Source: a virus
Reading direction: 5' to 3' (one strand)
IMG/VR virus record: IMGVR_UViG_3300025289_000112
Location: 1 to 25,921 of that record
Length of the DNA stretch: 25,921 bases
Shown: positions 335 through 14,852 of the stretch, piece after piece
Layout of the letters: every line of letters starts with the position of its first letter
Position numbering within the stretch: the first letter of the stretch is position 1
Translations under genes and position numbers: made by a program
The notes under the pieces: generated by a model
What the model was told of the DNA's origin: nothing
Database searches by the model: none
The model's input: only the letters and a program-made list of their open reading frames with translations

Positions 335-3300
335 TTATCGTCTCAGGAGCGGCACTCGGTAATCCCGCTCCACTTGTTCCCGCCGCGCCTGCTTCGCTAG
401 CTGCTCCGCGATCAACTCCTGGATCGTCCCGATGTCAGCCTGCTTGGCCGGCTTGCCGTCGTCCTCCACCCGCTTCCGGAGCAGGCCCTTCAAGCGGTTC
501 AACTCGAACTCCTGCTGCTGCTTCTTGTGCCGCGTCTGCTCCTGCACGTCCACAAGGTACGCCCTCGGGGTGACGCCGAAAGCGCCAGAGATGAGCCGTT
601 CCCACCAGGGCAGTTCCTTCCTGGAGCCGAGCGCCTGTCCGCGTGGGGCGGCGTTCCCCAGCGCCACCCGCAACTCCTTGAAGTCCTGGAAGCTCACGAT
701 GTTCAGCCGGTCCAGTTCGTTGAAGCCCCGGACCAGAGCCCTGACCGCATGAGTCACACGCTTCGGCATCGTGATGCCGAACATCTCGTCATGCTCCCCA
801 GGGATGTTCACCAGCTGCCCCTGGGTGTAGAAGTTCTTGTTGAAGACCTGCTCGATGGCCTGCTTGGCGAAGGGATCGAACCGCTCCATCCAGTAGGTGA
901 AGATGTTCCCTTCCTTCGGATCGCCGCTCACGGTGTCCTGAAGCGCCTGGGCTATCCGGGTGACTTCCCCGAGCGGCAGGTAGTTCCCGAGCACCATGTA
1001 CTTCGGCCCCTCGGGGCTTTGCGCCACTGGGATGCCGAGGTTGTCCTGCAAGAACTCCGGCAGGATGGTCTCAATGTTCGCCGGGTCGAGTCCCTGGGCT
1101 TTCGTCAGGGAGTCGTGCATCTTGTTCCACCACGTCACCACGCCGGGCTTGGTGAAATACTGCTTCAGCGTCGTGGAGATGGCGAACTTCTGCCAGGCGT
1201 AGAAGGGGATCAGGCGGCGGAGCGTGTGGCGCTCGAACGTCGTGAGCGTCCGCATGGGATCGTAGGCCACGGCCGCCGTCCGCTGGACCGCCTCGTCGAT
1301 GTCCATGCCGCCGTGCCATCGGCCCAGGAAGCCCGAGAGCTTGGAGTGGTTGTCTCCGAAGACAGCCATCTTGTAGCCGCCCTGGATCAGAGCGTTGTCG
1401 GTGGCCTTGCCGAACTTGTTGCCGCCCATGATCGGCGGCAGGATGCCAGCGAGCCAGTGCTTGAAGCCTCCTTCTGAGGGGGCCACGCCCTGGAGCCTAA
1501 GAGCTTCCTGAGTCCCCAGGAACATCTCGTCTCTCACCAGAGGCGATCCCACGAGCCCGCGCGGCTGGAGCTTGTCGAAGACCTGACGTGCCGTCAATTC
1601 CATGCCATCAGAAGCGCGCCTTGTCGAAGTGGTAGGAAGCAACGAATAGTCGCCGTTCAAGGCTCTTTGTATCGCGTGAGAAAACTTGTATGAATCCTTG
1701 AATCCACTGCCGAGCTGCACTGCATTGAAACCACCCTCTGCGATCTGCATGACTTCATTTGTCATCCAGTCCCGCATCCACCGCTGGAGGAAGACCGCCG
1801 GCATCAGCGTCCACGCCTTCCACCAGGACGTGTTCTGGTCCCAGTGCTTGATCAGCCAGTTCTCCCCGAGCTTGTCCGGCCGGCGCATGTTGCTCAGAGT
1901 CCCGTTCGGCCCCCAGATCGCGTCGTAGTGGTCCTTCCTGACGTAGACTAGTTCGGGATCGTTCTTGATGATCTTCTCGAAGAGGGCAGGGTCCGTCTGC
2001 TGGAGTTCCGTCAGCGGCAGGACGCCATCCCGATGCTGCCAGCGGTGGAGGATGAGAGCTTCCCTGGTCTGCTCAGGAGACAGCTTCCGCCCGACGATCT
2101 CCCGGAGCATCTGCTGCTTGTCCTTGGAGCCAGCCTTGATGCCGGCAAGGTACTCGTCCCGCATCCCGCGGATCTCGCCTTGCTGCGCCCGGATCACGTC
2201 CTTCAGTTCCTGGATACGGAGTTTGCTGTGGCGCAAAGCCTCTAAGTCATCATTACGCAACCATCGAGCGTATTGGCGGAAGGATTCCCAGCCGCGTGGT
2301 GCCACGACTTTGCGTGACGGTACCGCGGCCTGTGGCGCTGGTGTAACAGGAGTTATAACGGTGCCCTCTGTGGCTAGGCCTCCCACTGCTTCCATCCTTG
2401 CCAGTCCTTCTTCCTCCAAACGCAGCCGTGCCGCTGCATCCTTGGTACGCTGGCTATGGGGCCCGAAAAGACTAATCTCCCACTCCAATGACCTACGAGC
2501 CTCTTCCACCCAACGCTTGCGTGCAAGGACGGCGGCAGCCAGATCCATTGACGATTCCGTGCCGCCAACTGCTGTTGTGGGCCCTGGGACAGATTGAGAC
2601 TTGATCGCCGTCAGTGCAGATGATTCCGGAACACGTTCTATAGCAGCCGCTTCCCAAAGACCAAGGAAAGCATCGAGGTCTTCTGCGTCAAGCTGCGTGC
2701 CGGGCTTGCCGTGTATAAGCGCACTAAGTTGACGTACCGCCCCTTTTTCCCGTTGGGCCCGTGCCCACCAGTCTTTCTGCGCCTGAAGATGCCTCTTCAT
2801 GGCTGCTACGGCCCAAGTGTCCGTGTCCTTCACGGCGAGGTCGCCCTTGTGAGTCAGGCCGAGCGCGCCGTCCCACTCGTCCAGAAGGTCCCCAAATTCC
2901 CTCTTCCCCTCCCCCAAGAGCTGGTGCGCCTGCTCCTCCAGCTGGTCCTTCGCTAGCCAGAAGCGGGCCTTCTGGTTGTTCCGCGTGGAGAGGTCGAGCA
3001 GCGTCGCGGGCTCTGGCGTGCGGAAGGTCGTGGCCGTCGTGCCGCGTTCTTTCATAGCCAAGGCCACGACCGGATGGCCTTCCCTCTGCGTCAGATTGCT
3101 GACCGTCTCATAGTAGGCCGATCCTCTGGTGCGAGCCAGAGCAATAGGCCCATTTGGATCCAGGAGGTTCTTGTTGATGAGGTTGCTGTCAAAGGTCTTG
3201 GTCGAGTCCTCCAGCCGCCGCCACACGGCAGAGAAAGGCTGCGTGTCGAACATGTGCAGCGCCTCGGGAGCCAAGCGTTCGACATCAGCCCTGACGGGAT

Positions 3301-5185
3301 CGAACCACCGGGCCAGCACACGATGGATCCCCTCGACAGGATCCCGCCGGAAGGCATCCTTGATCGGCTTCCACTCCGTGTACTTGGTCCCCAATTCCCA
3401 GGCGATGCTGTTCACGGTGTACGTGTCAAGCTGGTCGAATCCGCCACGCTTCTTCATGAACGCCGCGACGTAGGCCCGGGCTTGCTTGTTGAATCCATGC
3501 TCCACCGAGGACAACAGCTTCTCCTCGATGCCTTTCCGCACCTCGGGGTTCACGATGCGCGGAAAGTACAGTTCCGTGAAGCTGTTGATGAAACCGGCCA
3601 GGTGCTCGGAGTCCCACATGCCCTTGAGGATGGACTGGAACTCAGCAGTGACGGCGGCGACGTCCTGCTGCTTGCCGGCAGCGTGGATGCGCTGGAACAC
3701 GCCGATGTGCTCAGCCTGGGCAGCCTCGATCTGGGCGGCGCTCATGCCTGCCACTTCACCCTCAAGGCCAGCACGCGCCTCCTGGCCAGGAGTCGGACCA
3801 AGAGGCGCGGCTGAAGGCAAGGTCTCCGGGACTCCCGGAGGTTGCATCACGTCCAGGATGTTGCGTTCCTGGACCGCTACCTGGATGGGGCGCTTCAACT
3901 CCAGCCCCGCCCGCGCTGGCAGATTCCATGCCTCCCGGATGTCCTTCGGAATGGCGACGTTCGGGAACTCATCGTAGAGGCGGAAGGCCGCCTGTTGACC
4001 GATGAGAGGGTCAGCCGATGTCCTGGCCTGTTCCACAAGCTGCGCGAACTCTGGGCTCTCCTTGGTCAACCTCTCGAATCGGCTCTGCGCCTGCCGGACT
4101 TCGCGGCTCTCATTCGTGAAGATTTCGGAGAGCGCCCCCAGGTCGTCCAACTCCCGCTCGTTCAGGCCCCACTCCATCGACAGCATGACCCCCCTGGCCC
4201 CGTCAGGGTTGCGGAGGATGTCGGGATGATCGTGCTGGATCGCCATCACGCGCTCCCAGTACGCCTGGTTCTGGATGCGCGCTCCCACGCCGCCTTCCGT
4301 GATGGCATCCCGGACGAAGGCTCTGGTGGCAGCTCCCTTGATGCCAACGGCCATCTTCTGGGTAGCTGCGAGCACAGGGCGGGTGACTGGATTCGTGTTC
4401 AGGAACTCCGCGACGCCCTCCAGCGCCTTGGCGATGTTGATGTCCATCGCCTTGAACGGCTGCCACACATACTGTTGGCCGATGATGGGGATGTTCCAGA
4501 CGAACAGTGCGCGACGGGCCGTCTCCGTCTGCTTCACGAGAGCGCCCATGTCAAGCTTCAGGAAGCGCATCGTGGCATCAGCAGTGTGCCCTTCTGCCTT
4601 GGCAATCTCCTTGAACATCTGGTCCCACTGAAGCATCGGCTTCGCGGCCCGAGCTGCTGCCTGCCCGCCCCTTCTGAGGCCGATCGCTGTCCCACTGATC
4701 TTCCCGTACGGGTTCCAGAAGCTCGACGGGTCCAGAATGATCTCGCCCGCGAGGTTGATGAAGAAGTTGGCGACTCCCTCGTTCACGTTCTTTTGCCCGA
4801 AGCTCCAGCCGAGGCTCTCACGCACATCCGTGAACCGCACGTCTCTCCCAGTGAACGGCTGCCCTGGCAGGAGCATGTCGATCACCTGGAAGATCGGGTT
4901 CTTCCGGAACCCTTCCCAGAGGTTGTCTCCCGCGCCAGTTTCGCCCGTGCCGGCCAAGAAGCCTTTGACCATCTGGCCGAAAAGAAGCTCGTCGAAGAAC
5001 TCCAGCGGCTCGACCCACCACGGCTTCTGCGCTTCCTGATCCTGGTAGGCCCTCACGATCTGCGGGAGCTGGGGCATGTACGCCGAGATATCGGTAGGCG
5101 TGCCACCGAAGCTAGGGAGTGCCGGCAGGTTGAAGGACGGCCGGAGGAGGCCGCTCGGAGCGAAGAGTGGGAGCGGATCCGGCAT
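335..5185 (-). CDS. Giant virion protein (1616 aa), probable internal/ejected protein
   Basis: This is the largest gene of the window. The N-terminus is proline-rich (about residues 1-45) and begins MPDPLPLF, followed by mixed helical sequence with a DPSSFWNPYGK stretch near residue 157. Low-complexity Pro/Ala linkers occur near residues 445-475 and 870-960. A charged helical coiled-coil region spans about 975-1040. A Trp-rich, membrane-active-looking segment (WWKAWTLMPAVFLQRWMRDW) starts near 1121, and a second aromatic/basic region (FERHTLRRLIPFYAWQKF) begins at residue 1317. I see no lysozyme or transglycosylase catalytic motif. Very large, helix-rich proteins in this place, after the tail genes of short-tailed phages, are typically internal virion proteins ejected with the DNA; that role is inferred. 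The ATG at 5185 lies 3 bases after the stop of the Pro-rich gene, with GGGAGGACAGG upstream. Stretches around 1600-1760 and 2230-2720 are less GC-rich than their surroundings, suggesting mosaic replacement. Confidence 0.8.
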   Translation of the reverse strand: MPDPLPLFAPSGLLRPSFNLPALPSFGGTPTDISAYMPQLPQIVRAYQDQEAQKPWWVEPLEFFDELLFGQMVKGFLAGTGETGAGDNLWEGFRKNPIFQVIDMLLPGQPFTGRDVRFTDVRESLGWSFGQKNVNEGVANFFINLAGEIILDPSSFWNPYGKISGTAIGLRRGGQAAARAAKPMLQWDQMFKEIAKAEGHTADATMRFLKLDMGALVKQTETARRALFVWNIPIIGQQYVWQPFKAMDINIAKALEGVAEFLNTNPVTRPVLAATQKMAVGIKGAATRAFVRDAITEGGVGARIQNQAYWERVMAIQHDHPDILRNPDGARGVMLSMEWGLNERELDDLGALSEIFTNESREVRQAQSRFERLTKESPEFAQLVEQARTSADPLIGQQAAFRLYDEFPNVAIPKDIREAWNLPARAGLELKRPIQVAVQERNILDVMQPPGVPETLPSAAPLGPTPGQEARAGLEGEVAGMSAAQIEAAQAEHIGVFQRIHAAGKQQDVAAVTAEFQSILKGMWDSEHLAGFINSFTELYFPRIVNPEVRKGIEEKLLSSVEHGFNKQARAYVAAFMKKRGGFDQLDTYTVNSIAWELGTKYTEWKPIKDAFRRDPVEGIHRVLARWFDPVRADVERLAPEALHMFDTQPFSAVWRRLEDSTKTFDSNLINKNLLDPNGPIALARTRGSAYYETVSNLTQREGHPVVALAMKERGTTATTFRTPEPATLLDLSTRNNQKARFWLAKDQLEEQAHQLLGEGKREFGDLLDEWDGALGLTHKGDLAVKDTDTWAVAAMKRHLQAQKDWWARAQREKGAVRQLSALIHGKPGTQLDAEDLDAFLGLWEAAAIERVPESSALTAIKSQSVPGPTTAVGGTESSMDLAAAVLARKRWVEEARRSLEWEISLFGPHSQRTKDAAARLRLEEEGLARMEAVGGLATEGTVITPVTPAPQAAVPSRKVVAPRGWESFRQYARWLRNDDLEALRHSKLRIQELKDVIRAQQGEIRGMRDEYLAGIKAGSKDKQQMLREIVGRKLSPEQTREALILHRWQHRDGVLPLTELQQTDPALFEKIIKNDPELVYVRKDHYDAIWGPNGTLSNMRRPDKLGENWLIKHWDQNTSWWKAWTLMPAVFLQRWMRDWMTNEVMQIAEGGFNAVQLGSGFKDSYKFSHAIQRALNGDYSLLPTTSTRRASDGMELTARQVFDKLQPRGLVGSPLVRDEMFLGTQEALRLQGVAPSEGGFKHWLAGILPPIMGGNKFGKATDNALIQGGYKMAVFGDNHSKLSGFLGRWHGGMDIDEAVQRTAAVAYDPMRTLTTFERHTLRRLIPFYAWQKFAISTTLKQYFTKPGVVTWWNKMHDSLTKAQGLDPANIETILPEFLQDNLGIPVAQSPEGPKYMVLGNYLPLGEVTRIAQALQDTVSGDPKEGNIFTYWMERFDPFAKQAIEQVFNKNFYTQGQLVNIPGEHDEMFGITMPKRVTHAVRALVRGFNELDRLNIVSFQDFKELRVALGNAAPRGQALGSRKELPWWERLISGAFGVTPRAYLVDVQEQTRHKKQQQEFELNRLKGLLRKRVEDDGKPAKQADIGTIQELIAEQLAKQARREQVERDYRVPLLRR

Positions 5186-5188
5186 CGA

Positions 5189-5593
5189 CTACGCCTGTCC
5201 TCCCTTGGCGGCAAGCATCTGCGCTATGACCTGGATCGCCGGGTTCTGGAGTCTCCTGGAGAAGCGGCCGGTGTTTTGGTTGTTCAAAAGCTGCTGAAGG
5301 AGCATGAACCAGGGAGAGTTTGCTGTCTCCTGCACCACACGCGGATCGTACTGGGTCTGCGGATTCTGCTGAGGTTGGAGGATCTGGCCGAAGCTGAGTC
5401 CTGGGGGTGTCGTCTGCCTGAGTGCCGGGAAGTCCCACTGGCGGTTGAGGGTGGGCGCGAGGTCGGCGGCTGGCAAGCTGAAGAGGCTCTGGGCGAGGGG
5501 ATGGAGCGGCGGGACCGTGGGCGGAGGCTGTGGAACAGGACCGCCAGGGCTGCCAGGAGGATCACCGTAGCCGTAGGGGTTCGGGTCTGGCAT
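5189..5593 (-). CDS. Pro/Gln-rich small virion-cluster protein (134 aa)
   Basis: The product begins MPDPNPYGYGDPPGSP and is dominated by Pro and Gln in its first 90 residues, so it is probably disordered. A more ordered C-terminal helical part contains WFMLLQQLLNNQN and ends AAKGGQA. I chose the ATG at 5593, which overlaps the upstream stop as TGATG and has AGAGG about 12 bases before it. The ATG four codons earlier sits directly against that AGAGG and is unlikely to be used. The first four residues, MPDP, are shared with the next gene, the 1616-residue protein. It lies between two likely internal virion proteins, so a minor virion component or assembly factor is plausible. I recognise no family. 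Confidence 0.7.
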   Translation of the reverse strand: MPDPNPYGYGDPPGSPGGPVPQPPPTVPPLHPLAQSLFSLPAADLAPTLNRQWDFPALRQTTPPGLSFGQILQPQQNPQTQYDPRVVQETANSPWFMLLQQLLNNQNTGRFSRRLQNPAIQVIAQMLAAKGGQA

Positions 5594-6891
5594 CACTTCA
5601 ACCATCCTCTGAGTTCGGTCACGCCAGCATCCACCATCTCTTGGACGTTATGGATGCCGTATCGGTCTGCTCTGGGCCAGCGACGGATTTCCTCCATCTT
5701 CCACAGCAAATGGCGCAGCTTCGCAGGATCGTCACCAGCAACTTCAACAATCTGATCAAGGATGGGCTGTGAGACGCCTTTCTCACGCAGCATCTTGTAT
5801 GTGTCAGTTGCGGCACTCATCGCTTCCTTGCGGGCGCTTTCCTTCACGTTGATGAGTGGCGTCTTTTCGCCTTCTTTGGGTGCTCCAGCACCAGCGCGGA
5901 CATCCCGCAGCATCTTGACCATCTTCCCAGCACGGCTTGGTACTGAAGGCAGCGGCCTGGCAATGATCTTCAAGCGACGCTGTTCGGCCTGGTCTTCGGT
6001 GATCGTCCCCTTGGCGAAGTCGGCGTCGATGGCGTCGATCTCCAGTTGCCGCTCCTCAAGAGCCTTGCCGATGACATCAGGTTCTTCAAGGAACAGGTCG
6101 GCCAATTCCTTGCCTCCCGTGGCGGCGTTCACAGCGTTGCCACGAGCACGCAGCTTGTGCATCTTGTCAATAGCCTGCTCAGGCGTCATGCCAAAACCTT
6201 CAAGAATAGGAATGTACTGAGGATTCGCCATGTCAAGCATGAACTTCTGTACGAGCGCATCGTCGTCCGTGATGCGCTGGAGTTCGGTATGGAGAGCCAA
6301 CTGATCACTGCTGGCTCTCGCCGAGGCTTCATCCTTGGCCCTGCCAAGTGCGAATGTGAAGAGAGCTTCCTTGGTTCTCGCAAGCCGGTCTTGAACTGCG
6401 GCCTTCTTGGCATCCTCCGCCTGTTGACGCGCCAGGTTCAGCCGCTCTTGTTCGATACCGATACGCTGTGTCTCGCGCCGCCCGCCCTCTTCGGCCATGA
6501 CTTCCTGGCGCATGAGATTCTGTCGCTGGAAACCTTCGGCTGTCTTCTGGCTAGAGGCCGCCCGTTCCTCGGCCTTGGTCAAGCGCGTCTCGCCAAGCTC
6601 TGCTAGCCGGCGCTGTGTAGCCCCCGTGGCTTTGGCCTCGGCCAGACGTTCGATGTCCATGCCCTCTTGCGCAAGCCGCCCACGACGGCCCTCCTCACGC
6701 TCCTCCTTCAACAGACTGATGCGCTCGCCGTGGCGCGTCGTTTCGAGTGCGACGTCCTCCTTGCGCTCCCGCTGCCGGGTCTGTTCCTGCTCCTGCATCA
6801 TCTGCCGCCGGGCAGCCTCCTGGAGTCCAGGCGCGATGGCAGAAGAGAACCCGCTGGCGAAGGCTCCGATGCCGGCTCCGAGGTCGCTCAT
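5593..6891 (-). CDS. Coiled-coil internal virion-like protein (432 aa)
   Basis: A short Gly/Ala-rich N-terminus (MSDLGAGIGAFASGFSSA) is followed by about 180 residues of highly charged, Glu/Arg/Gln-rich helix (EQEQTRQRERKEDV, LAELGETRLTKAEERAA), a long coiled coil. The C-terminal half is globular and helical and includes MTPEQAIDKMHKL and an acidic segment before RPLPSVPSRAGK. Two in-frame ATGs compete. The one at 6897 forms an ATGA overlap with the upstream stop but has AAGGA only 3 bases away. The one at 6891 has the same AAGGA at 9 bases and is preferred. Placement between the CWVA protein and the giant protein suggests a partner ejected or packed with it, comparable in position to the internal virion proteins of short-tailed phages. 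No enzymatic motif is visible. Confidence 0.75.
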   Translation of the reverse strand: MSDLGAGIGAFASGFSSAIAPGLQEAARRQMMQEQEQTRQRERKEDVALETTRHGERISLLKEEREEGRRGRLAQEGMDIERLAEAKATGATQRRLAELGETRLTKAEERAASSQKTAEGFQRQNLMRQEVMAEEGGRRETQRIGIEQERLNLARQQAEDAKKAAVQDRLARTKEALFTFALGRAKDEASARASSDQLALHTELQRITDDDALVQKFMLDMANPQYIPILEGFGMTPEQAIDKMHKLRARGNAVNAATGGKELADLFLEEPDVIGKALEERQLEIDAIDADFAKGTITEDQAEQRRLKIIARPLPSVPSRAGKMVKMLRDVRAGAGAPKEGEKTPLINVKESARKEAMSAATDTYKMLREKGVSQPILDQIVEVAGDDPAKLRHLLWKMEEIRRWPRADRYGIHNVQEMVDAGVTELRGWLK

Positions 6892-6893
6892 GG

Positions 6894-7076
6894 TCATGAA
6901 TCCTTCGGGGTGTTGGGCAGTATAATGAAGCCACCGTCGCCGAGATACACTCTGCCAGCAGCAACTAACTCCCAGAATGTGACCAACTCCTCTCCCGTCA
7001 CTCCGATGCTGCGAGCGAACGGAGCAACGCGCTCACAGAGCCAGTCTTTCGGATGGTCCTTCAGGTCAAACTCCAT
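6894..7076 (-). CDS. Small hypothetical protein (60 aa)
   Basis: The ATG at 7076 overlaps the end of the upstream CWVA-motif gene by 11 bases and has GGAGG six bases before it, which fixes the start. The longer open frame upstream only reads through the neighbour's codons in another frame. The product, starting MEFDLKDHPKDW and ending PNTPKDS, is small, acidic and soluble-looking. It has a central helical part (VTGEELVTFWELVAAG) followed by a beta-like RVYLGDGGFIIL. It resembles a small helical/winged adaptor, but I recognise no family. The tight coupling on both sides indicates it is translated with the ejection-protein cluster. Confidence 0.7.
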   Translation of the reverse strand: MEFDLKDHPKDWLCERVAPFARSIGVTGEELVTFWELVAAGRVYLGDGGFIILPNTPKDS

Positions 7077-7959
7077 ACATGGCCTCCTGGCCGGCGTGCG
7101 CGAGACGGACGAAGAACGGTCGAAGGGTGCGGCGCAGGAAGGCGCTCCTGCGGACCAGCCAGGCCACGGGGCGACCGATGGCAAGGTACGTCCACCGGAA
7201 CCACGACGGGGCCTTGAACCGGACCCAGTACCGCGCGGCGTGGGTCTCCCAGGCGTCCTTGCCGAAGATCGCCTCGGCCACCCAGCAGAGCAGCCCTGCC
7301 ATCGTGTTCACTTGGCCGGTGAATCCTGCTCCTGGCATCGCTCCAGCAGCGCCAGCACCGCCGAACAGGCTCCCGAATCCACCAGCCATGCCGGCAGCTC
7401 CGAGGAGGCTGCCGCCAAGCTGACCGACCCCGCCCAACGCCTGGGCTAGTGGGCTCGGCTGCCCGGCTAGGCCCGTCAGGGTGTTCCCGACGCCTAGTTG
7501 CGTGTTTGCGAGACTCTGGCTCATCCCCGCCCTCTGCCCGAGCAAGCTCTGGATGAGGTTGAAGGCGTTCACCAAGTCGGCGTTGCTCTGGAGCGCCCCC
7601 TGGATCTCCGCCTGGCGTGATCCCTGGGCAAGCTCCGTCCCGAGTCCTGTGGCCGCCCTGCCCATCACCGCGTTCCTGGCCCCTGACCGCATCCCAGAGC
7701 CGCTACCAGCCAGCCTGGAGAACTCCTGGTCCAGGAAGTTCCTGGAGCCCATCTGCGCCCTGGAAGCCGCGTTCTGGTTGATCTTGGCGATGTCATCAGG
7801 ACCGAGACTGTAGGGGTCCTGAGCCAGCCCCAGAGCCCGCTGGAAAAGCTCTTGGTACAGCGGCGAGTTCGCGTACTCCGTCTCTGCCCGCTGGCTGGTC
7901 GTGATGGCAGACTGACTCGTTTTCCGAGCCCGCTTCTGCGCTGAAGATTCACCTCCCAT
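7066..7959 (-). CDS. Virion protein with C-terminal CWVA motif (297 aa)
   Basis: The start at ATG 7959 has GGAGG seven bases upstream and overlaps the GNAT gene by 11 bases; the open frame before it is a shadow of that gene. The N-terminal 130 residues are Ser/Arg/Gln-rich and helical. A Gly/Ala/Leu-rich low-complexity middle (about residues 165-215) could insert in or cross membranes. Near residues 222-236 is LLCWVAEAIFGKDAW, followed by a Trp/Arg-rich amphipathic end (APSWFRWTYLAIGRP, then LVRRSAFLRRTLRPFF). A CWVA or WVA segment followed by 'AP-WFR' is a recurring C-terminal module of phage structural proteins in my recollection of such families; its function is not established to my knowledge. 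Neighbours make an internal or ejected virion protein likely. Confidence 0.75.
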   Translation of the reverse strand: MGGESSAQKRARKTSQSAITTSQRAETEYANSPLYQELFQRALGLAQDPYSLGPDDIAKINQNAASRAQMGSRNFLDQEFSRLAGSGSGMRSGARNAVMGRAATGLGTELAQGSRQAEIQGALQSNADLVNAFNLIQSLLGQRAGMSQSLANTQLGVGNTLTGLAGQPSPLAQALGGVGQLGGSLLGAAGMAGGFGSLFGGAGAAGAMPGAGFTGQVNTMAGLLCWVAEAIFGKDAWETHAARYWVRFKAPSWFRWTYLAIGRPVAWLVRRSAFLRRTLRPFFVRLAHAGQEAMYGV

Positions 7960-8443
7960 GAGCGATCCTCCGCTGGTAGAGAGTGGCGATGGGCTCGAAG
8001 CCCAGCCCCTCCATGTGTCGTGACATCGTGACGTTACCACACACGACGAGCGCCTGCGTCCAGACATCGGCCTGGTGCATCGCCGCCAGGCCCTTGCCGA
8101 CCTTGATGGCTGCCCTGTAGAGCTTGCCGGCCACGCCCTCCGGGCGCGCATCCGGCCGGACGTAGAACCCGTCAATCTTGGTCGTCAGTTCGCGGCCGAG
8201 TCCCATGATGCCGCCAGCGTTGATGGCGATGAAGCCGACGGCGTCTGCGCCGTCCCATGCCAGGATGACCAGGCAGTCCTTGTCCCTGAGCCAGCCGGCA
8301 GTCTGGAGGCTCCGGTCGAACTCTCCCACCGCCTCGTTTCCTGGGCGCAGCGTCGGTTCACAGTTCATCTCGTGCTCGCCCTGTTGTCTCCTGAGCGCCA
8401 TCAGGTCTCCGTAGTCCTGCCATGTCGCCATCGTCAGTTTCAT
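7949..8443 (-). CDS. GNAT-family N-acetyltransferase (164 aa)
   Basis: The start is the ATG at 8443, which forms an ATGA overlap with the upstream gene and follows GGAGGAGGGGCC; the longer open frame is a shadow. The fold elements of the GCN5-related acetyltransferases appear in order. There is a central strand at about residues 57-63 and another with AVGFIAI at 68-74. Motif A is IDGFYVRP (90-97), followed by the acetyl-CoA pyrophosphate loop R100-x-x-G103-x-A105-G106-K. The helix AAIKVGKGLAAM comes next, and a motif-B-like end contains N137 and HMEGLGFEP (143-151). The enzyme would transfer an acetyl group from acetyl-CoA to an amine; the substrate is unknown. It is unusual within a tail/ejection gene cluster, suggesting modification of a virion protein or early action on a host target. 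Confidence 0.8.
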   Translation of the reverse strand: MKLTMATWQDYGDLMALRRQQGEHEMNCEPTLRPGNEAVGEFDRSLQTAGWLRDKDCLVILAWDGADAVGFIAINAGGIMGLGRELTTKIDGFYVRPDARPEGVAGKLYRAAIKVGKGLAAMHQADVWTQALVVCGNVTMSRHMEGLGFEPIATLYQRRIAHGR

Positions 8444-8745
8444 GGCCCCTCCTCCAGAGCTTCCAGGAGGGCGAGCCTGAGCGCCGCTTTCCGTGTGGCC
8501 GAGATGAGGGCCACGGGCGCAGCCTGAAGGAACTCGTCCAGGACCATGCACAGCGTGGCCGCCAGGCGGGCGATGTCCATACGATCGCCACTGTCCCCGA
8601 CACGGCGGTAACGGCCGGTCTCGGAATCCCAGAGGATCTCCACGCACTCCCCCTGGACCGCGCCCGTCCAGTGCTGGAAACGCCGCGTCGCGGAACCGAT
8701 CCGTTCCCAGCCTCCTGCTTGCAACTCAGCCAGTGTCTTCGGCAT
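8440..8745 (-). CDS. Hypothetical protein (101 aa) in tail-appendage cluster
   Basis: The ATG at 8745 overlaps the stop of the tail-fibre-like gene as TGATG, and the gene's own stop overlaps the GNAT start as ATGA. The product begins MPKTLAELQAGGWERIG, has a beta-rich middle (CVEILWDSETGRYRRVGD) and ends in a helical, alanine/leucine-rich segment. There is no membrane segment or recognised motif. Its position between appendage proteins and the acetyltransferase makes a minor tail protein or chaperone possible. I do not recognise the family. Confidence 0.7.
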   Translation of the reverse strand: MPKTLAELQAGGWERIGSATRRFQHWTGAVQGECVEILWDSETGRYRRVGDSGDRMDIARLAATLCMVLDEFLQAAPVALISATRKAALRLALLEALEEGP

Positions 8746-9641
8746 CAGACAAGCACTCCTATGATCTCTGCCCAGTGCACGGTATTTGCAAACGCATTCC
8801 CGGCAGTCGCGTTTTTCATGGCGGCCATGATGTCATCGCCCGCTGCGTAGGACGCAAGCGGCGAAGCCTCCGTGCCTTCCGCGTACACTCTGATCTGCGT
8901 GTTTTCAGCGCCGGTGTTGCTCGCGCACGACGTGAATATACCGGTACTGATCTTCTTGACGCCGACCTGGAACGTGTATGTGTCTACCGCAGCACCCGCA
9001 GTCGCAACACCCAAGGCGGTAATCGCCTTGAAAGTCTTACCGGCGGGTACGGTCCACTTCTGATTCGTGTTCGTACTGCCCATAAATCCGGCAGTATTGG
9101 ACCCGGCTGCTAGCGCGGACGTGACATTGAATGCAAATACGAGACGGATCAATACGATGGCATCGTCAGCCAAAGCCGCAGTCGTGGTGCCGGTCCCGCC
9201 GTTGGCAAGAGGGACAGGATCCGCGAGCAGCGCCGCCGCGCCAAGGCCAAGGGTCGTCCGCTGCGCCGCCGCAGTGGCATCGTCAAGAAGCGCGAGTCCC
9301 GCTGCCGTGAGATCATACGTCGCCGCAGTCCCTGATCCTGTAAACTGAATCCCTTTGTTAACCGCTGACGTGAGTCCGGCGATAGCTGACAACTCCGCAT
9401 CCTGAGCCTGAACATTAGTGCCAATGACAACCCCGAGCGTGACCCGCTGCGCTGTCGCATCAGCATCGTCGATCAACGCTCGGCCGGCAGCGGTGCAGTC
9501 GATCTCCTCGCCCGCCCCGGCCCCCGCCGTAAATCGTCCAACCAGCTTGTCGGTCGCGGTCATCGCCAGCTTCGCGGCCACAAGGCTGTTGTCAGCGATC
9601 CCGGACGCTTTCAGATTGCCGTTCTTGTCGTAGAGCGGCAT
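8745..9641 (-). CDS. Tail fibre/appendage protein with fibre repeats (298 aa)
   Basis: The N-terminal half carries two copies of a phage tail-fibre repeat: AGRALIDDADATAQRVTLG near residues 52-70 and AGLALLDDATAAAQRTTLG near 113-131. A Gly/Thr linker of the LANGGTGTTTAA type follows, typical just before the distal domain of many trimeric fibres. The C-terminal 130 residues (from about VFAFNVTSALAAG) are beta-rich, with WTVPAGKTFKAITAL, and are the probable receptor-facing or capping domain. The protein is expected to form an extended trimer on the outside of the tail. The ATG at 9641 overlaps the upstream stop as TGATG, with GGAGG seven bases away. At 298 residues it is short for a full fibre, so it probably works with the neighbouring appendage genes. 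Confidence 0.8.
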   Translation of the reverse strand: MPLYDKNGNLKASGIADNSLVAAKLAMTATDKLVGRFTAGAGAGEEIDCTAAGRALIDDADATAQRVTLGVVIGTNVQAQDAELSAIAGLTSAVNKGIQFTGSGTAATYDLTAAGLALLDDATAAAQRTTLGLGAAALLADPVPLANGGTGTTTAALADDAIVLIRLVFAFNVTSALAAGSNTAGFMGSTNTNQKWTVPAGKTFKAITALGVATAGAAVDTYTFQVGVKKISTGIFTSCASNTGAENTQIRVYAEGTEASPLASYAAGDDIMAAMKNATAGNAFANTVHWAEIIGVLV

Positions 9642-9961
9642 CAGGTTTCCTCCACCCCTGAGATCGTGTAATCCACCATGCTCGCCGTCGTAGCCTGGCC
9701 CTGGATGATGTCACCAGCCTCCAGTACAAGCACCGAATCCAGAGCCTCGCCGTAATCTCCTGTCGTCAGCGTAGCCTTGAACACCACCCGGCTCGTGCCG
9801 GTCCTGTTGAGCCACAGCGTCACGGTCTCCGACGTGCTGTTGGAGTTGTAGACGGTGATGCTCTTGATGTACGCCGTCGTGCTCGCGGGACACGTATAGA
9901 CCGTCCCCTTGCTATTCGCCAACTGCCCATCTGCAAGAGCTTTGGTGGTGAAGGTGCTCAT
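9641..9961 (-). CDS. Small beta-sandwich-like virion protein (106 aa)
   Basis: The sequence is Thr/Ser/Val-rich, beta-type, with no membrane segment: a TVYTCPASTTAYIKSITVY segment near residue 20, then SETVTLWLNRTG, VVFKATLTT and LVLEAGDIIQGQA. This layout, in which strands alternate with short polar turns and end in 'AGD-I', is that of small phage appendage or decoration beta-sandwiches. It shares an ATGA overlap with the upstream fibre-like gene at 9958-9961 and a TGATG with the downstream one. A tail-appendage or fibre-tip role is inferred from the two flanking fibre-type genes. Confidence 0.7.
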   Translation of the reverse strand: MSTFTTKALADGQLANSKGTVYTCPASTTAYIKSITVYNSNSTSETVTLWLNRTGTSRVVFKATLTTGDYGEALDSVLVLEAGDIIQGQATTASMVDYTISGVEET

Positions 9962-10401
9962 ATTGCCGCATACCCTAGGTGCTTCGGATAACCAGAAGGC
10001 TCGAACTCCCAGCCGGTCGCGGAGCGGAACACGACGCTCTGGCCGTCCACCGGGGCCTGATCCGATGCACTCATGGCCCCAACCGGGATTGCCGCAGGAT
10101 CCCAGAACGGGTCCGTCCCGTTTGACCGCAAGGTCGTGCCAGCAAGCGCGAGAGCAAGCCGGGCCGGGGTAGATGCGGCCGATGCAGCGTAGAGATCTCC
10201 TCGTGTCGTCAGGGTGCTCTTAAGCGCGTACTGCGTATGGTCATCGTCTGTGAGTCCTCCGAGACTCCCGTGGTCGATCGCTGCGTCGGCCTGTTGGTAG
10301 ACCATGTGCAGCAGCCGTTCCTTCAGCTCATCCAGCCACCACCGCAGACGTGCAGGATCCCGAGGATCAGGGACGGGTGGTAGTTCCAGTTTGAAGCTCA
10401 C
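9958..10401 (-). CDS. Tail fibre/appendage protein with DHGSL-DDDHTQY repeat (147 aa)
   Basis: Residues 43-58 read IDHGSLGGLTDDDHTQ, the well-known phage tail-fibre segment that precedes trimeric stalks. Then comes a TTRGDLYAASAASTPARL unit, matching the common 'KGDLL..G.....RL' fibre repeat, and a short C-terminal tail (SGYPKHLGYAAI). The N-terminus (PPVPDPRDPARLRWWLDELKERL) is a proline-rich anchor followed by a helix that may dock onto the tail. The start is GTG at 10401, overlapping the nozzle-like gene's stop as GTGA. With the two genes after it, this forms an appendage module attached to the short tail. Confidence 0.78.
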   Translation of the reverse strand: MSFKLELPPVPDPRDPARLRWWLDELKERLLHMVYQQADAAIDHGSLGGLTDDDHTQYALKSTLTTRGDLYAASAASTPARLALALAGTTLRSNGTDPFWDPAAIPVGAMSASDQAPVDGQSVVFRSATGWEFEPSGYPKHLGYAAI

Positions 10402-13400
10402 AATGCCTCCAAGGCTTCCGCCTCGACTTCAAACTTGAACACGCTGATCTTGCCGCTCGCCGAAGGGATCGCATCCAAGACTGCCGCAGATGGATAGCCT
10501 GTCTCCGCGACTCTGAGCCGGAATGATCGCCCGACGCCGCCGATCGGGATGCGCTTGAAGGATTCAGTCGCCGTCCACGTCCTATGGTAGTCAGCCGCGC
10601 CTGCGTAGGTCCACGCCCGCCCTGGATTGTTCGGCTTCAGGATCAGGTGGAAGTTGTTGGTGACGTCGGACTCGCCGATCGCCTTGAACCATTTGAGTCG
10701 CTTGTTCTGGAAGAAATCGCCGAAGTCGATCATGAAGTCCGCGTACCAGTCGATGCCAGCGATGGCGTACGGATCGGAGTCCGCTGGCTGGTAGACCTGA
10801 TCGTCGTAGAAGGTCAACGTAGTTGCCGTGTTACCAGCAATGCGTGTACGGTAGAGATTCGCCGTACTGATATCGTACCAGTAGCAGTAGAGACCTTTGT
10901 ACTCGTCAGTCGTCCATGCCTTGCTCGTATCTTGCAGCGATGTAGCTCCATGAGTTCCCAAGGCTGTGCCTGCAAGCACAGCGATGGTGTCCTGATTCCC
11001 GTCGTAGGTCCCGCTATCGAGCTGCACGAGGAATCCTCGGGACGTCCCGTAGAGACCAGGTTCGTCGTTCTCATCCTCGACTTCCAGGATGGAGTCAAGG
11101 TCGATGTCGTACCGGCTCCAGATCCCTTGGGAAATGTCGAAGACCAGGGCCATGTCGTTCCGCGACGCCGAGGACGATGAGCAGGCAATCCAGAGTTGGT
11201 TCCGGGAACGGTGGATGGCCACCGATGCGTACTTGAGTCGGCCGGAGCTGAGCCCGGTCCGGATCGTCGTCTGGATGGACGGCCGGTTGGTCTGTGTCGG
11301 GCTCGATAGGTTCAGGGCGTTGTAGCCATCCCAGAGAAATACGTCACGCTCGGAGACGAAGAACTGGCCGGACTCGAACGGTATGACCGCCATCGGCCCG
11401 ACGCAGCCTGTGTCCTTGCTGAGGTAGCTCGGGAAGAATGGATCCGTACTTGAGCCCGTGAAGGTGATGGCCACGCGGCCATCCCGGAAGTGAGCCAGGA
11501 GCTGGTTCAACATCGGCTTCAAGCTGGTGCAGGCGTCGCCGGTGTCCAGGTCAGCGTCCACGTAGTCCACGGTCTGGTCGAAGCTGTCGAGAGCTCCGGC
11601 ATCCGAGAAGTAGATGCGGGTGGGATTCTCACTCTGACCAGCGACCCAGAGCCGATCTTTCCACGTCGCCACAAGGCTGCCCTGGGGGGCTTCCTCGTTG
11701 ATCGTGAAATCTGCCAGGGTGGTCCCAGTAGCTGATGGCCCGTCGATTCCTCCTGACGGAGCGTAGGTGACGGTGGTGTTGTCCTCCACTGTGGCGATGA
11801 GATAGATGGGAGGCGCATCAGCAGCACTACCAGTGGTCGCAACAGCGGTTGCCCATATCCTCCGCTGGTTCACCTGCTTGTCCGCCGATACCGGAAGCTC
11901 GATCGTGGTGATCTGCTGGTTCAGTGTCAACGTTTGCAGCACCCCAGGACTCGGATTCGATTCCGTCCCGCTCTCTGCGTTCCTGTACGTCACATAGATG
12001 TAGTAATCGCCGGCAGCAAAGGCCCCGCCTGCACCTACTGTAGTGATGACTGGAGTCGCTTGGGGGGCTCTGATGCCGACGTATCTTAACTTGTCGCCAT
12101 CATAGACCATCGGCCGCTTGCCGTTGTCGGAAGCGAGAAACACCCGGTCACTGTACTGAGCAGCGGTCCACAGCGTGCCTTTCACTAGACCACCACTGAA
12201 CAGTTTGATGCTACCGTTCGAAACATTCACGGCGTATAGCGATGTCCCGGAGACGATCAGCATCTCACGCTTCAGACTGCCGAGAGAGTCGAACCTTCTG
12301 TAGTCGTGGACGAGTTGACAGAACGGTGGATCGTAGGGATCCACCATGCCCTCATCCCTGGAGAGGCCGAAGCCATCTTCAGGGTAGAGTTGAGCTGTCG
12401 TCGTCTGGCTGCCCACAGTGCGCAGTTGGGTGCCTTGGCCATCGTCGAGCGGCAGACCAGCAAGCATGGTGTAGAACGCTGACACTGCTCCGGTCTCCTG
12501 GCCCCACGGAGGCTGGTGTTGGGCTGGGAGCGCGGCAAAGCCAGAGGCGTTGGCCTTGATGGCATAGACCGAGTCGATGACCCCGAAGGCCGTTGTCCCT
12601 CGCGTTGCGGGAGGCACGACTGAGATATCGGAAAACTTGTCCCCGATGCACCAGTGCGCGCTTCTGGCGGCCGCCGAAGGGTCGATAGGTGCAGTGATGA
12701 CAGTGTTTGTCGTGTAGGTCGTGTATCCGCCCGCAGCAGTCTCTACGAATGCAACCAGCTCTACTACATCGTCTACTGGAGTGGCGGTGGGATGCTGATA
12801 GAGTCGGAGGTTGATGCGGATACGCTTTCCAACGTTGGCTTCCGCCGACAAGGTGAGACTGCTCAAGGTCAGCGTCGGGTGGAGCGTCGTGCCGTCGTAA
12901 TACTGCCCGATGATCCTGTCGCTCAAGACCGAGATCGCTATCGGGGCGGGATTCGTTGCGTCTGTTCCAGCCCAGAGGAGCGTCTGATTCCGAACTGTCG
13001 TTTCGTTGGCAGCCAGAAGTGGTACATACAACAGAGAGACAACCCAGTTTCTCCCTCCCGAAATGTCGTTGGTGAAAAGGTCTCCAGCGGTGTTGGAGGC
13101 AACGTTGGCAACCCTCCAGTGGACGAAGCCGCCGTAGTGCGCTGGAGCGACAAGGGCTCCGGGATCAGAAGATCCGGCGAACTGGAGCCCTGAAACCCCG
13201 TTGACAAGGTCTCCGGTAAGCCAGTTGGTTCCCTCACCAATGGCGTAGCCGTCGTTGGCGTTGGGGCTGGAATCATCGAGAGTAATTCCGATTCCATCAT
13301 TGCACTTCCAGTAGCCGATAGCTGTGAGGGCTTCATCCGTGGTGAGTTCCCTGGTGTAGACCGACACGAACGATGGCTGCGTTGCTCCTGTCGTCATATC

Positions 13401-14105
13401 CATCCGCAGTTCAGCGATGGAGAACGCTCCGTAGTCCGTATCCCTGACAGTCCCGTTGGTGGTACTGACGCCGATGGTCCACGGATTCGAGTTGGTGATC
13501 CAGGATCCGATGACGAGCGTCTGGGCGGTGCCTACCGTGGCTCCAGCGTCATCCCTCACGGTGAAAGTGTAGGTGTTGGTGGCAGCGTCGGTGATGACGA
13601 GGGTAAGATGCCGGAAGAGGCCGACGATGCCGGCGCTGGAGCCGTTGCCATCGTTGACGGTCACGTTCCTAAGGGTGCCAGCCGTGTTGTCGTAGACCCT
13701 GAGCCGCCAGCCTCCGTTGTTGGTGTTGATCGTGGGGTCGTAGGTGATCCACAAGAACCGGCTGGTGGTCGTTCCTGACCCTTTGGAGATGATGGTCTTC
13801 TCGGCCGCGGGGAAGCGTTGCTTCTTCACGCAGCAGGAGAGGTAGAGCCTGTCGCTGGCCCCTGGCTGGTACGCCGAGAGGTGCTGGATGATGATAAAGT
13901 CGTCCAGACCATCCAACTGCACCGACGAATCCTTGAACGCTGTGCTCGTAATCCTGGTGTGACCGTTCCTGCGCTCCAGCGCCCGGTTGGCGAACTCGAC
14001 GTTCCTGAGATCAGGGCACTCGATCCGCGTGAGGTTGACAGGGATGGAGCGGTCGCTGAGACCAGCGAACCTGTCGATCGTCGCGTAGACGGGTCTAGAA
14101 CCCAT
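10398..14105 (-). CDS. Tail nozzle/stabilisation-like beta-propeller protein with inserted lectin-like domains (1235 aa)
   Basis: Residues 10-50 (DRFAGLSDRSIP, then CPDLRNVEF and ALERRNGHT) look like the N-terminal arm of tail nozzle or P22 gp10-type stabilisation proteins ('F-GG/GL...DL-NV...L-RR-G'). From about residue 595 to the end the sequence is propeller-like: LKREMLIVSGTSLYAVN, RVFLASDNGKRPMVYDG, WKDRLWVAGQ, SERDVFLWDGYNALNLS. A fibronectin-like segment lies at about 681-790. Between these are two units resembling LamG/concanavalin-type domains. The first (about 61-262) opens SVQLDGLDDFIII and ends VYTRELTTDEALTAIGYW. The second (about 263-520) opens YWKCNDGIGITLDDSSPNANDG. The expected role is the distal tail tube/nozzle, directly after the adaptor gene; the inserted domains would bind surface glycans. 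The ATG start at 14105 has only a weak ribosome site. Confidence 0.72.
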   Translation of the reverse strand: MGSRPVYATIDRFAGLSDRSIPVNLTRIECPDLRNVEFANRALERRNGHTRITSTAFKDSSVQLDGLDDFIIIQHLSAYQPGASDRLYLSCCVKKQRFPAAEKTIISKGSGTTTSRFLWITYDPTINTNNGGWRLRVYDNTAGTLRNVTVNDGNGSSAGIVGLFRHLTLVITDAATNTYTFTVRDDAGATVGTAQTLVIGSWITNSNPWTIGVSTTNGTVRDTDYGAFSIAELRMDMTTGATQPSFVSVYTRELTTDEALTAIGYWKCNDGIGITLDDSSPNANDGYAIGEGTNWLTGDLVNGVSGLQFAGSSDPGALVAPAHYGGFVHWRVANVASNTAGDLFTNDISGGRNWVVSLLYVPLLAANETTVRNQTLLWAGTDATNPAPIAISVLSDRIIGQYYDGTTLHPTLTLSSLTLSAEANVGKRIRINLRLYQHPTATPVDDVVELVAFVETAAGGYTTYTTNTVITAPIDPSAAARSAHWCIGDKFSDISVVPPATRGTTAFGVIDSVYAIKANASGFAALPAQHQPPWGQETGAVSAFYTMLAGLPLDDGQGTQLRTVGSQTTTAQLYPEDGFGLSRDEGMVDPYDPPFCQLVHDYRRFDSLGSLKREMLIVSGTSLYAVNVSNGSIKLFSGGLVKGTLWTAAQYSDRVFLASDNGKRPMVYDGDKLRYVGIRAPQATPVITTVGAGGAFAAGDYYIYVTYRNAESGTESNPSPGVLQTLTLNQQITTIELPVSADKQVNQRRIWATAVATTGSAADAPPIYLIATVEDNTTVTYAPSGGIDGPSATGTTLADFTINEEAPQGSLVATWKDRLWVAGQSENPTRIYFSDAGALDSFDQTVDYVDADLDTGDACTSLKPMLNQLLAHFRDGRVAITFTGSSTDPFFPSYLSKDTGCVGPMAVIPFESGQFFVSERDVFLWDGYNALNLSSPTQTNRPSIQTTIRTGLSSGRLKYASVAIHRSRNQLWIACSSSSASRNDMALVFDISQGIWSRYDIDLDSILEVEDENDEPGLYGTSRGFLVQLDSGTYDGNQDTIAVLAGTALGTHGATSLQDTSKAWTTDEYKGLYCYWYDISTANLYRTRIAGNTATTLTFYDDQVYQPADSDPYAIAGIDWYADFMIDFGDFFQNKRLKWFKAIGESDVTNNFHLILKPNNPGRAWTYAGAADYHRTWTATESFKRIPIGGVGRSFRLRVAETGYPSAAVLDAIPSASGKISVFKFEVEAEALEAL

Positions 14106-14108
14106 AGA

Positions 14109-14852
14109 TCACACTGAGGGCACGTCCTCTCCTGCCGTGATGGTCGTTTCGAGGGTCCCTGTCCGGCTCCGGAATCCCCTGTACGGCCTGTTCTGGACGA
14201 TGTTCCCGATGACGGGATGATTCGTGAGCAGGATCCTCTTCAGCATCTCCTGGTAGTCGGCCTTGTAGGACAGGAGCAAGTCCCTGGACAGGCACTGCGG
14301 GAACTGGATGACAGCTCCGAGTACGAGCAGGCGGTGGTACTCGATCGGGAAACGGCGGTCGATCACATCGGTGTCAGCAGCACCGATGATGTCGTCCGGC
14401 AGGCCGAAATAGCTGTAGACCAGCGTGTAGCCGGAATCAGGCTTCGGCGTCACCCTGAACGTGAACAGGCCGCTGTCGTGGTCCCTGCCACGGAGCGTGT
14501 AGTACCTGGGGCGCGACTCATTCGAGAACCTGTTATCAAGTTCGAGGCGATCGTAGTCCTGCTGGTCGAACCAGATGAGTGTCCAGTTGGGCGAGTCCGT
14601 GAACTTCACGCCAGGCTCGATGATGGCATGGAAGTCGTCCGGCATCGTGTAGTCAGACACGCTCTTGGCAAGCTGGAGGACGGATTCGACTCTGAAGGCA
14701 GGATGATGCGCTTGGGCGATCGTCGTCTGGACGATGTAGTCGAGGGCGTACTTGATCTCGGTGTCTAGCGAGGTGTCAGTGACACCGATGCCGATGAGGA
14801 ACGTCTTCACCCTCGCAACGATGTTGCTGATGGTGAGGGTTTTGTACGCCAC
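14109..14852 (-). CDS. Head-tail adaptor / tail tubular protein A-like (247 aa)
   Basis: The product has an N-terminal helical region (LTISNIVARVKTFLIG, LDTEIKYALDYIVQTT) then a beta-rich middle with YTMPDDFHAII, WFDQQDYDRLEL and RPRYYTLRG. A C-terminal helical part (LLLSYKADYQEMLKRIL) follows. Sequences with an N-terminal helix bundle, a 'P-DF' strand and an 'RPRYYT'-type strand are typical of the gp11-like tail tubular/adaptor proteins that join the portal to the nozzle in podoviruses. The gene stands immediately before the nozzle-like gene, the usual order. The start is GTG at 14852, with GAGG nine bases upstream. Confidence 0.72.
   Translation of the reverse strand: MAYKTLTISNIVARVKTFLIGIGVTDTSLDTEIKYALDYIVQTTIAQAHHPAFRVESVLQLAKSVSDYTMPDDFHAIIEPGVKFTDSPNWTLIWFDQQDYDRLELDNRFSNESRPRYYTLRGRDHDSGLFTFRVTPKPDSGYTLVYSYFGLPDDIIGAADTDVIDRRFPIEYHRLLVLGAVIQFPQCLSRDLLLSYKADYQEMLKRILLTNHPVIGNIVQNRPYRGFRSRTGTLETTITAGEDVPSV

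Follow-up and report, generated by a model that had tools for sequence, protein, structure and literature searches.

A LamG-like domain pair between the N-terminal arm and the propeller of a podophage nozzle protein

Introduction

Host recognition by short-tailed phages is usually sought in their fibres and spikes. Several known systems come close to the one considered here. In T7 gp12 (tail tubular protein B), the 45 N-terminal residues form three strands of a platform barrel that docks on the adaptor, and a jelly-roll fibre dock sits at the level of the adaptor-nozzle joint, connecting the propeller's end with the platform (PMC6702177). The SU10 nozzle gp17 (Kuravirus; PDB 7z47 and 7z4f) has a seven-bladed propeller core in which four Ig-like domains separate blade 2 from blade 3, and its domains straighten on attachment, extending the tail by 28 nm (PMC9509320). 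Phage OWB provides a precedent for a receptor-binding nozzle, as its adaptor and nozzle (TTPA/TTPB) bind a bacterial surface receptor, the protein Vp0980; the accessible portion of that report describes no inserted lectin-like domains in either (PMC7241545). In jumbo phages, Laminin G3 proteins likewise place ConA-fold domains on virions, which the accessible portion of the source assigns to fibres and other virion parts, with no description of a nozzle (PMC7824862).

Here we analyse a nozzle gene in a viral sequence of 25,921 nucleotides (the whole of IMG/VR record IMGVR_UViG_3300025289_000112, hereafter the window). Its product resembles SU10 gp17 in having a seven-bladed propeller core, an SU10-type adaptor encoded upstream and additional beta-sandwich domains within the nozzle chain, but the inserted domains are LamG-like and lie between the N-terminal arm and blade 1. 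It resembles T7 gp12 in that its N-terminal residues are expected in the platform and in the prospect of side domains at fibre level, whereas T7 gp12 has no LamG pair and its dock does not connect arm and blade 1. Searches of open-licence papers turned up no description of a LamG-bearing nozzle. A conserved lectin-like pair in the tail conduit would be an overlooked recognition or attachment surface, which matters for host-range prediction from metagenomes.

Results

The gene lies on the minus strand at 10398-14105, the coordinates given in an earlier note on this DNA. Its neighbours in the 25.9 kb record include genes for terminase, the major capsid protein, the adaptor and small fibre-like proteins, together with a portal gene assigned by position and size without a profile match.

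10398..14105, minus strand: nozzle protein with LamG-like insert; 1235 aa plus stop, one open frame
14109..14852, minus strand: adaptor protein, directly upstream of the nozzle gene; Pfam SU10_adaptor, E 1.2e-14
9958..10401, minus strand: small fibre-like protein, its gene overlapping the stop of the nozzle gene; phrog_23837 virion structural protein, 7.9e-8
9641..9961, minus strand: 106-aa beta protein, possible appendage; phrog_1276 (function unknown), 9.6e-9
8745..9641, minus strand: tail-fibre-like protein; phrog_24210 tail fiber, 3.2e-11

The three small genes that immediately follow the nozzle gene appear to encode fibre or tail-appendage proteins, and a gene similar to 9958..10401 occupies the same place in the relatives L115 and L107. 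Since fibre-like genes follow the nozzle gene, the idea that the lectin domains sit on the tail tube instead of on separate fibres is not supported. The tail module also holds a GNAT acetyltransferase gene (window 7949-8647; Pfam Acetyltransf_1, 7.7e-7), and a GNAT gene is found near the nozzle in L109, L115 and the annotated phages ctMlz233 and ppBjS10J-1. Further along, positions 335-5185 encode a 1616-aa protein without a Pfam or PHROG match, the N-terminus of which is conserved in L115, L110 and a MAG contig; by position, it is probably an internal virion or ejection protein.

Both sequence and structure comparison show that the product of 10398-14105 is a podophage nozzle protein. In a first AlphaFold2 model, residues 595-1030 formed the central nozzle-type beta-propeller at pLDDT mostly 70-95, and the 13 highest-ranked Foldseek matches to this model were all nozzle or podophage tail entries. 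The top matches were SU10 (7z4f, 9.6e-14) and cyanophage A4 (9k09, 1.5e-13), with Pa223 (9nwi), Carin 1, VP1, LME-1, HRP29, P22 gp10 (8eap) and T7 gp12 (6r21) also among them, so that the structure prediction proposed as a check bore out the nozzle part. A profile of uninterrupted relatives found solved nozzle chains (PDB 8jov, E 1.9e-17; 9k09 tail tubular protein B, 6.1e-12), and the propeller is matched by PHROG 3287 (virion structural protein, E 7.7e-14) and by phrog_376. Close relatives in phage records are nozzles or 'stabilization proteins' of 500-600 aa in the same gene order. The protein was divided as follows:

13935..14105, minus strand: N-terminal arm (residues 1-57); arm profile match at 7-55, alignments A2, A5 and A9, T7 gp12 analogy
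13314..13934, minus strand: LamG-like unit 1 (residues 58-264); Laminin_G_3 in homologues, predicted strands 62-238
12486..13313, minus strand: LamG-like unit 2 with GYWKxNDG lead-in (residues ~265-540, domain 265/295-530); predicted strand order 307-518
12318..12485, minus strand: linker (residues 541-596) containing a third lead-in of LDDGxGxxL type; alignment A9, low model confidence
12060..12317, minus strand: propeller blade 1 (residues 597-682); blade-1 profile match, pLDDT ~80-90
11721..12059, minus strand: Ig/Fn3-like beta-sandwich (residues 683-795); strands in both models, common to relatives
10986..11720, minus strand: remaining propeller blades (residues 796-1040); pLDDT 80-95, Foldseek nozzle matches
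10770..10973, minus strand: small beta module recurrent in other nozzles (residues 1045-1112); predicted strands, similar segment in L027 and L084
10401..10769, minus strand: C-terminal platform region (residues 1113-1235); position and predicted strands (model without the last 35 residues)

The Ig/Fn3-like domain falls broadly where the SU10 nozzle has its four Ig-like domains (PMC9509320).

The interruption of the nozzle chain was established with separate arm and blade-1 profiles, built from uninterrupted relatives (25 for the arm) with the window protein left out. The arm profile scored 14.0 bits at residues 7-55 (best of 2000 shuffles, 6.0), and the blade-1 profile 27.1 bits at 609-683 (E 4.7e-7 within that set). 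Scanning IMG/VR with the core alignment yielded 64 loci, most of which have 50-85 residues ahead of blade 1, and about 25 relatives join arm and blade 1 directly. In alignment A2, 25 relatives occupy columns 1-56 and 30 occupy the columns from ~621, with the space between nearly empty. The separate profile matches, and the relatives that join both parts directly, show that the interruption is real and ~535 residues long; the profile placements and the alignment gap put the insert at approximately residues 58-593. The earlier note had read a single nozzle or stabilisation protein interrupted by roughly 500 residues, with an arm at 10-50 and resumption at about 595, and these boundaries now stand at 7-57 and ~593-597. 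Its expectation that the arm packs with the propeller is corrected: because the N-terminal strands of T7 gp12 lie in the platform barrel (PMC6702177), the arm should pack into a platform made together with the C-terminus, and residues 1-57 would contribute strands to this adaptor-docking domain. The arm had pLDDT <50 in both AlphaFold2 models. The base composition of the insert showed no clear difference pointing to a foreign origin.

The first model, made without insert homologues, left residues 57-593 unfolded, and insert-bearing homologues were therefore sought via a bacterial MAG match and then in IMG/VR. A second AlphaFold2 model, built from 11 insert-bearing sequences, folded residues 62-238 and 307-518 into two ordered all-beta units, whose strands mostly had pLDDT values of 60-84. 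Direct Pfam scans of the window protein, whole and in pieces, gave no Laminin_G_3 match above the curated cut-off, while four of nine homologous unit-1 sequences are matched (best 6.9e-6). The Laminin_G_3 profile thus missed the window protein itself and matched homologues at the same position. Comparison with a canonical LamG set by hhalign gave E 1.2e-4 for unit 1 and E 0.0044, with low probability, for unit 2. Direct profile support for unit 2 is weak, and its LamG-like assignment rests on predicted topology and position. Among remote nozzles, L116 (3.2e-10) and L105/L117 (same contig; 1.2e-17) exceed the Laminin_G_3 cut-off at the same site as clear pairs; L117 has a canonical LamG at the position aligned with unit 2, and the best L105 stretch lies there. 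PDB sequence searches with the window protein alone and with the LamG1 profile returned nothing significant, and tblastn of the insert against phage records gave no match. A tandem duplication of one unit was rejected, as units 1 and 2 are not recent duplicates of each other. Taken together, sequence comparison and predicted structure place a LamG/ConA-like domain pair at the junction of arm and blade 1, as had been proposed from the sequence, with the two units at ~58-264 and 265/295-530.

The same ORF occurs at 100% identity in three other contigs, one of which ends at residue 1163, and eight non-redundant relatives (31-41% identity) keep arm, insert, propeller and gene order. Six of these are full-length (L098, L099, L100, L103, L110 and L115, at 31-41%) and two truncated (L104 and L111, at ~32%). 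An assembly chimera was accordingly rejected, given the identical contigs and the same arrangement in contigs at 31-41%. Going by the sequences, the layout is common to at least eight related uncultivated viruses, and the eight close sequences form one clade with support 1.0. L116 and L117, found by alignment scans at 22-24% identity, branch apart from the other LamG nozzles, yet a tree constrained to a single origin was not rejected (p-AU 0.14, 5000 replicates). A search of 246 genomes from the phylum of a Phycisphaerae MAG yielded one bacterial MAG with arm and unit 1 on one contig (41% identical) and unit 2 and propeller on another (37%). Most relatives retain genes for scaffold, capsid and adaptor upstream of the nozzle, in the order capsid-adaptor-nozzle. 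Mean pairwise identity among five relatives was 0.54 for the arm, 0.41 for unit 1, 0.38 for unit 2 (with most gaps), 0.44-0.47 for the propeller and 0.32 for the C-terminal platform; the insert thus evolves not much faster than the nozzle body.

The arm/blade-1 junction is also variable elsewhere. Five related contigs have a propeller gene that lacks the arm and begins at blade 1, with the arm encoded just upstream by one or two genes of its own:

L030, 4121-4840: split-nozzle locus
L041, 4068-4793: split-nozzle locus
L038, 2703-4987: split-nozzle locus
L039, 3083-4782: split-nozzle locus
L080, 3363-4803: split-nozzle locus

Some of these arm genes are limited to the arm (74-76 aa), others fuse it to a jelly-roll or to a propeller-like domain, and two may stand in tandem; profile comparison of stand-alone with fused arms gave probability 95 and E 3.4e-8. 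In two of the arm genes, the jelly-roll is matched by PHROG 13989. Two MAG nozzles, L083 4089-6638 and L084 1137-3248 (Omnitrophota, Phycisphaerae), carry different inserts at this junction, ~210 and ~75 aa long. By our reading of the sequences, modules in these relatives can be labelled C1q-like, kelch/BNR-like and CBM-like; Pfam scans of those modules gave no match.

Discussion

By analogy with T7 and SU10, the nozzle would be present in six copies beneath a twelve-fold adaptor; its arm would complete the adaptor-gripping platform, and its propeller would line the exit channel. As the T7 arm strands belong to the adaptor-contacting platform, the insert would leave the nozzle body near the adaptor-nozzle interface, and up to twelve LamG-like domains could form a collar close to the level at which T7 seats its fibres. 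The tail tube itself may thus touch host sugars. We propose that this collar binds a host surface glycan, in addition to the separate fibre-like proteins, holding the tail near the envelope or helping to trigger opening, and we consider the chances of this proposal to be even. The modest divergence of the insert is weaker than expected for a receptor binder engaged in an arms race, and the presence of fibre-like proteins and the weak direct profile support for unit 2 also speak against the proposal.

LamG/ConA folds also serve protein-protein contacts. The pair could be structural, seating the fibre-like proteins or stabilising the adaptor-nozzle joint without any host binding, and the position of the T7 fibre dock at the adaptor-nozzle level (PMC6702177), the fibre-like genes directly after the nozzle gene and an insert conserved nearly as well as the body would all suit such a role. 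We nevertheless find it rather unlikely, as relatives without any insert also assemble tails, and unrelated fold types at the same junction fit varied ligands better than one conserved dock. The domains might instead rearrange on attachment, lengthening or widening the nozzle in the manner of the SU10 Ig-like domains (PMC9509320); this seems quite improbable, given that those domains lie between blades 2 and 3 and not at the arm junction, and that an Ig/Fn3-like domain is already present in the window protein at a comparable later site. Adhesion to environmental polysaccharide (biofilm, mucus or particles), as opposed to an infection receptor, draws on the lectin-type folds found on the virions of other phages, including, in the accessible portion of the source, the Laminin G3 domains of jumbo phages on fibres and other virion parts (PMC7824862). 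The data here do not distinguish such adhesion from receptor binding, but the tail-tip location speaks for an action at the cell, and we hold it to be very improbable.

Beyond the proposed glycan binding by the collar, the arm/blade-1 junction may be a general cassette site throughout this nozzle superfamily, occupied by LamG pairs, by other beta-sandwiches or by a gene boundary; in the last case, one or two separate arm genes would supply interchangeable modules, jelly-roll or propeller-like, for assembly in trans. We advance this tentatively, at somewhat below an even chance. If true, nozzles would add to the fibres another surface for host recognition, itself exchangeable. Judging from the relatives with split genes, a separate protein can apparently supply the platform arm, a surprising arrangement for a barrel with a structural role. 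Extra domains are also found later in the chain, around blades 1-2, in the nozzle relatives L040, L043, L052, L062, L076 and L081, the last with a DUF4082 domain in this later-site insertion (Pfam 7e-11). The L105/L117 nozzle (2994-7334) has three Laminin_G_3 stretches, the third apparently within the later propeller region.
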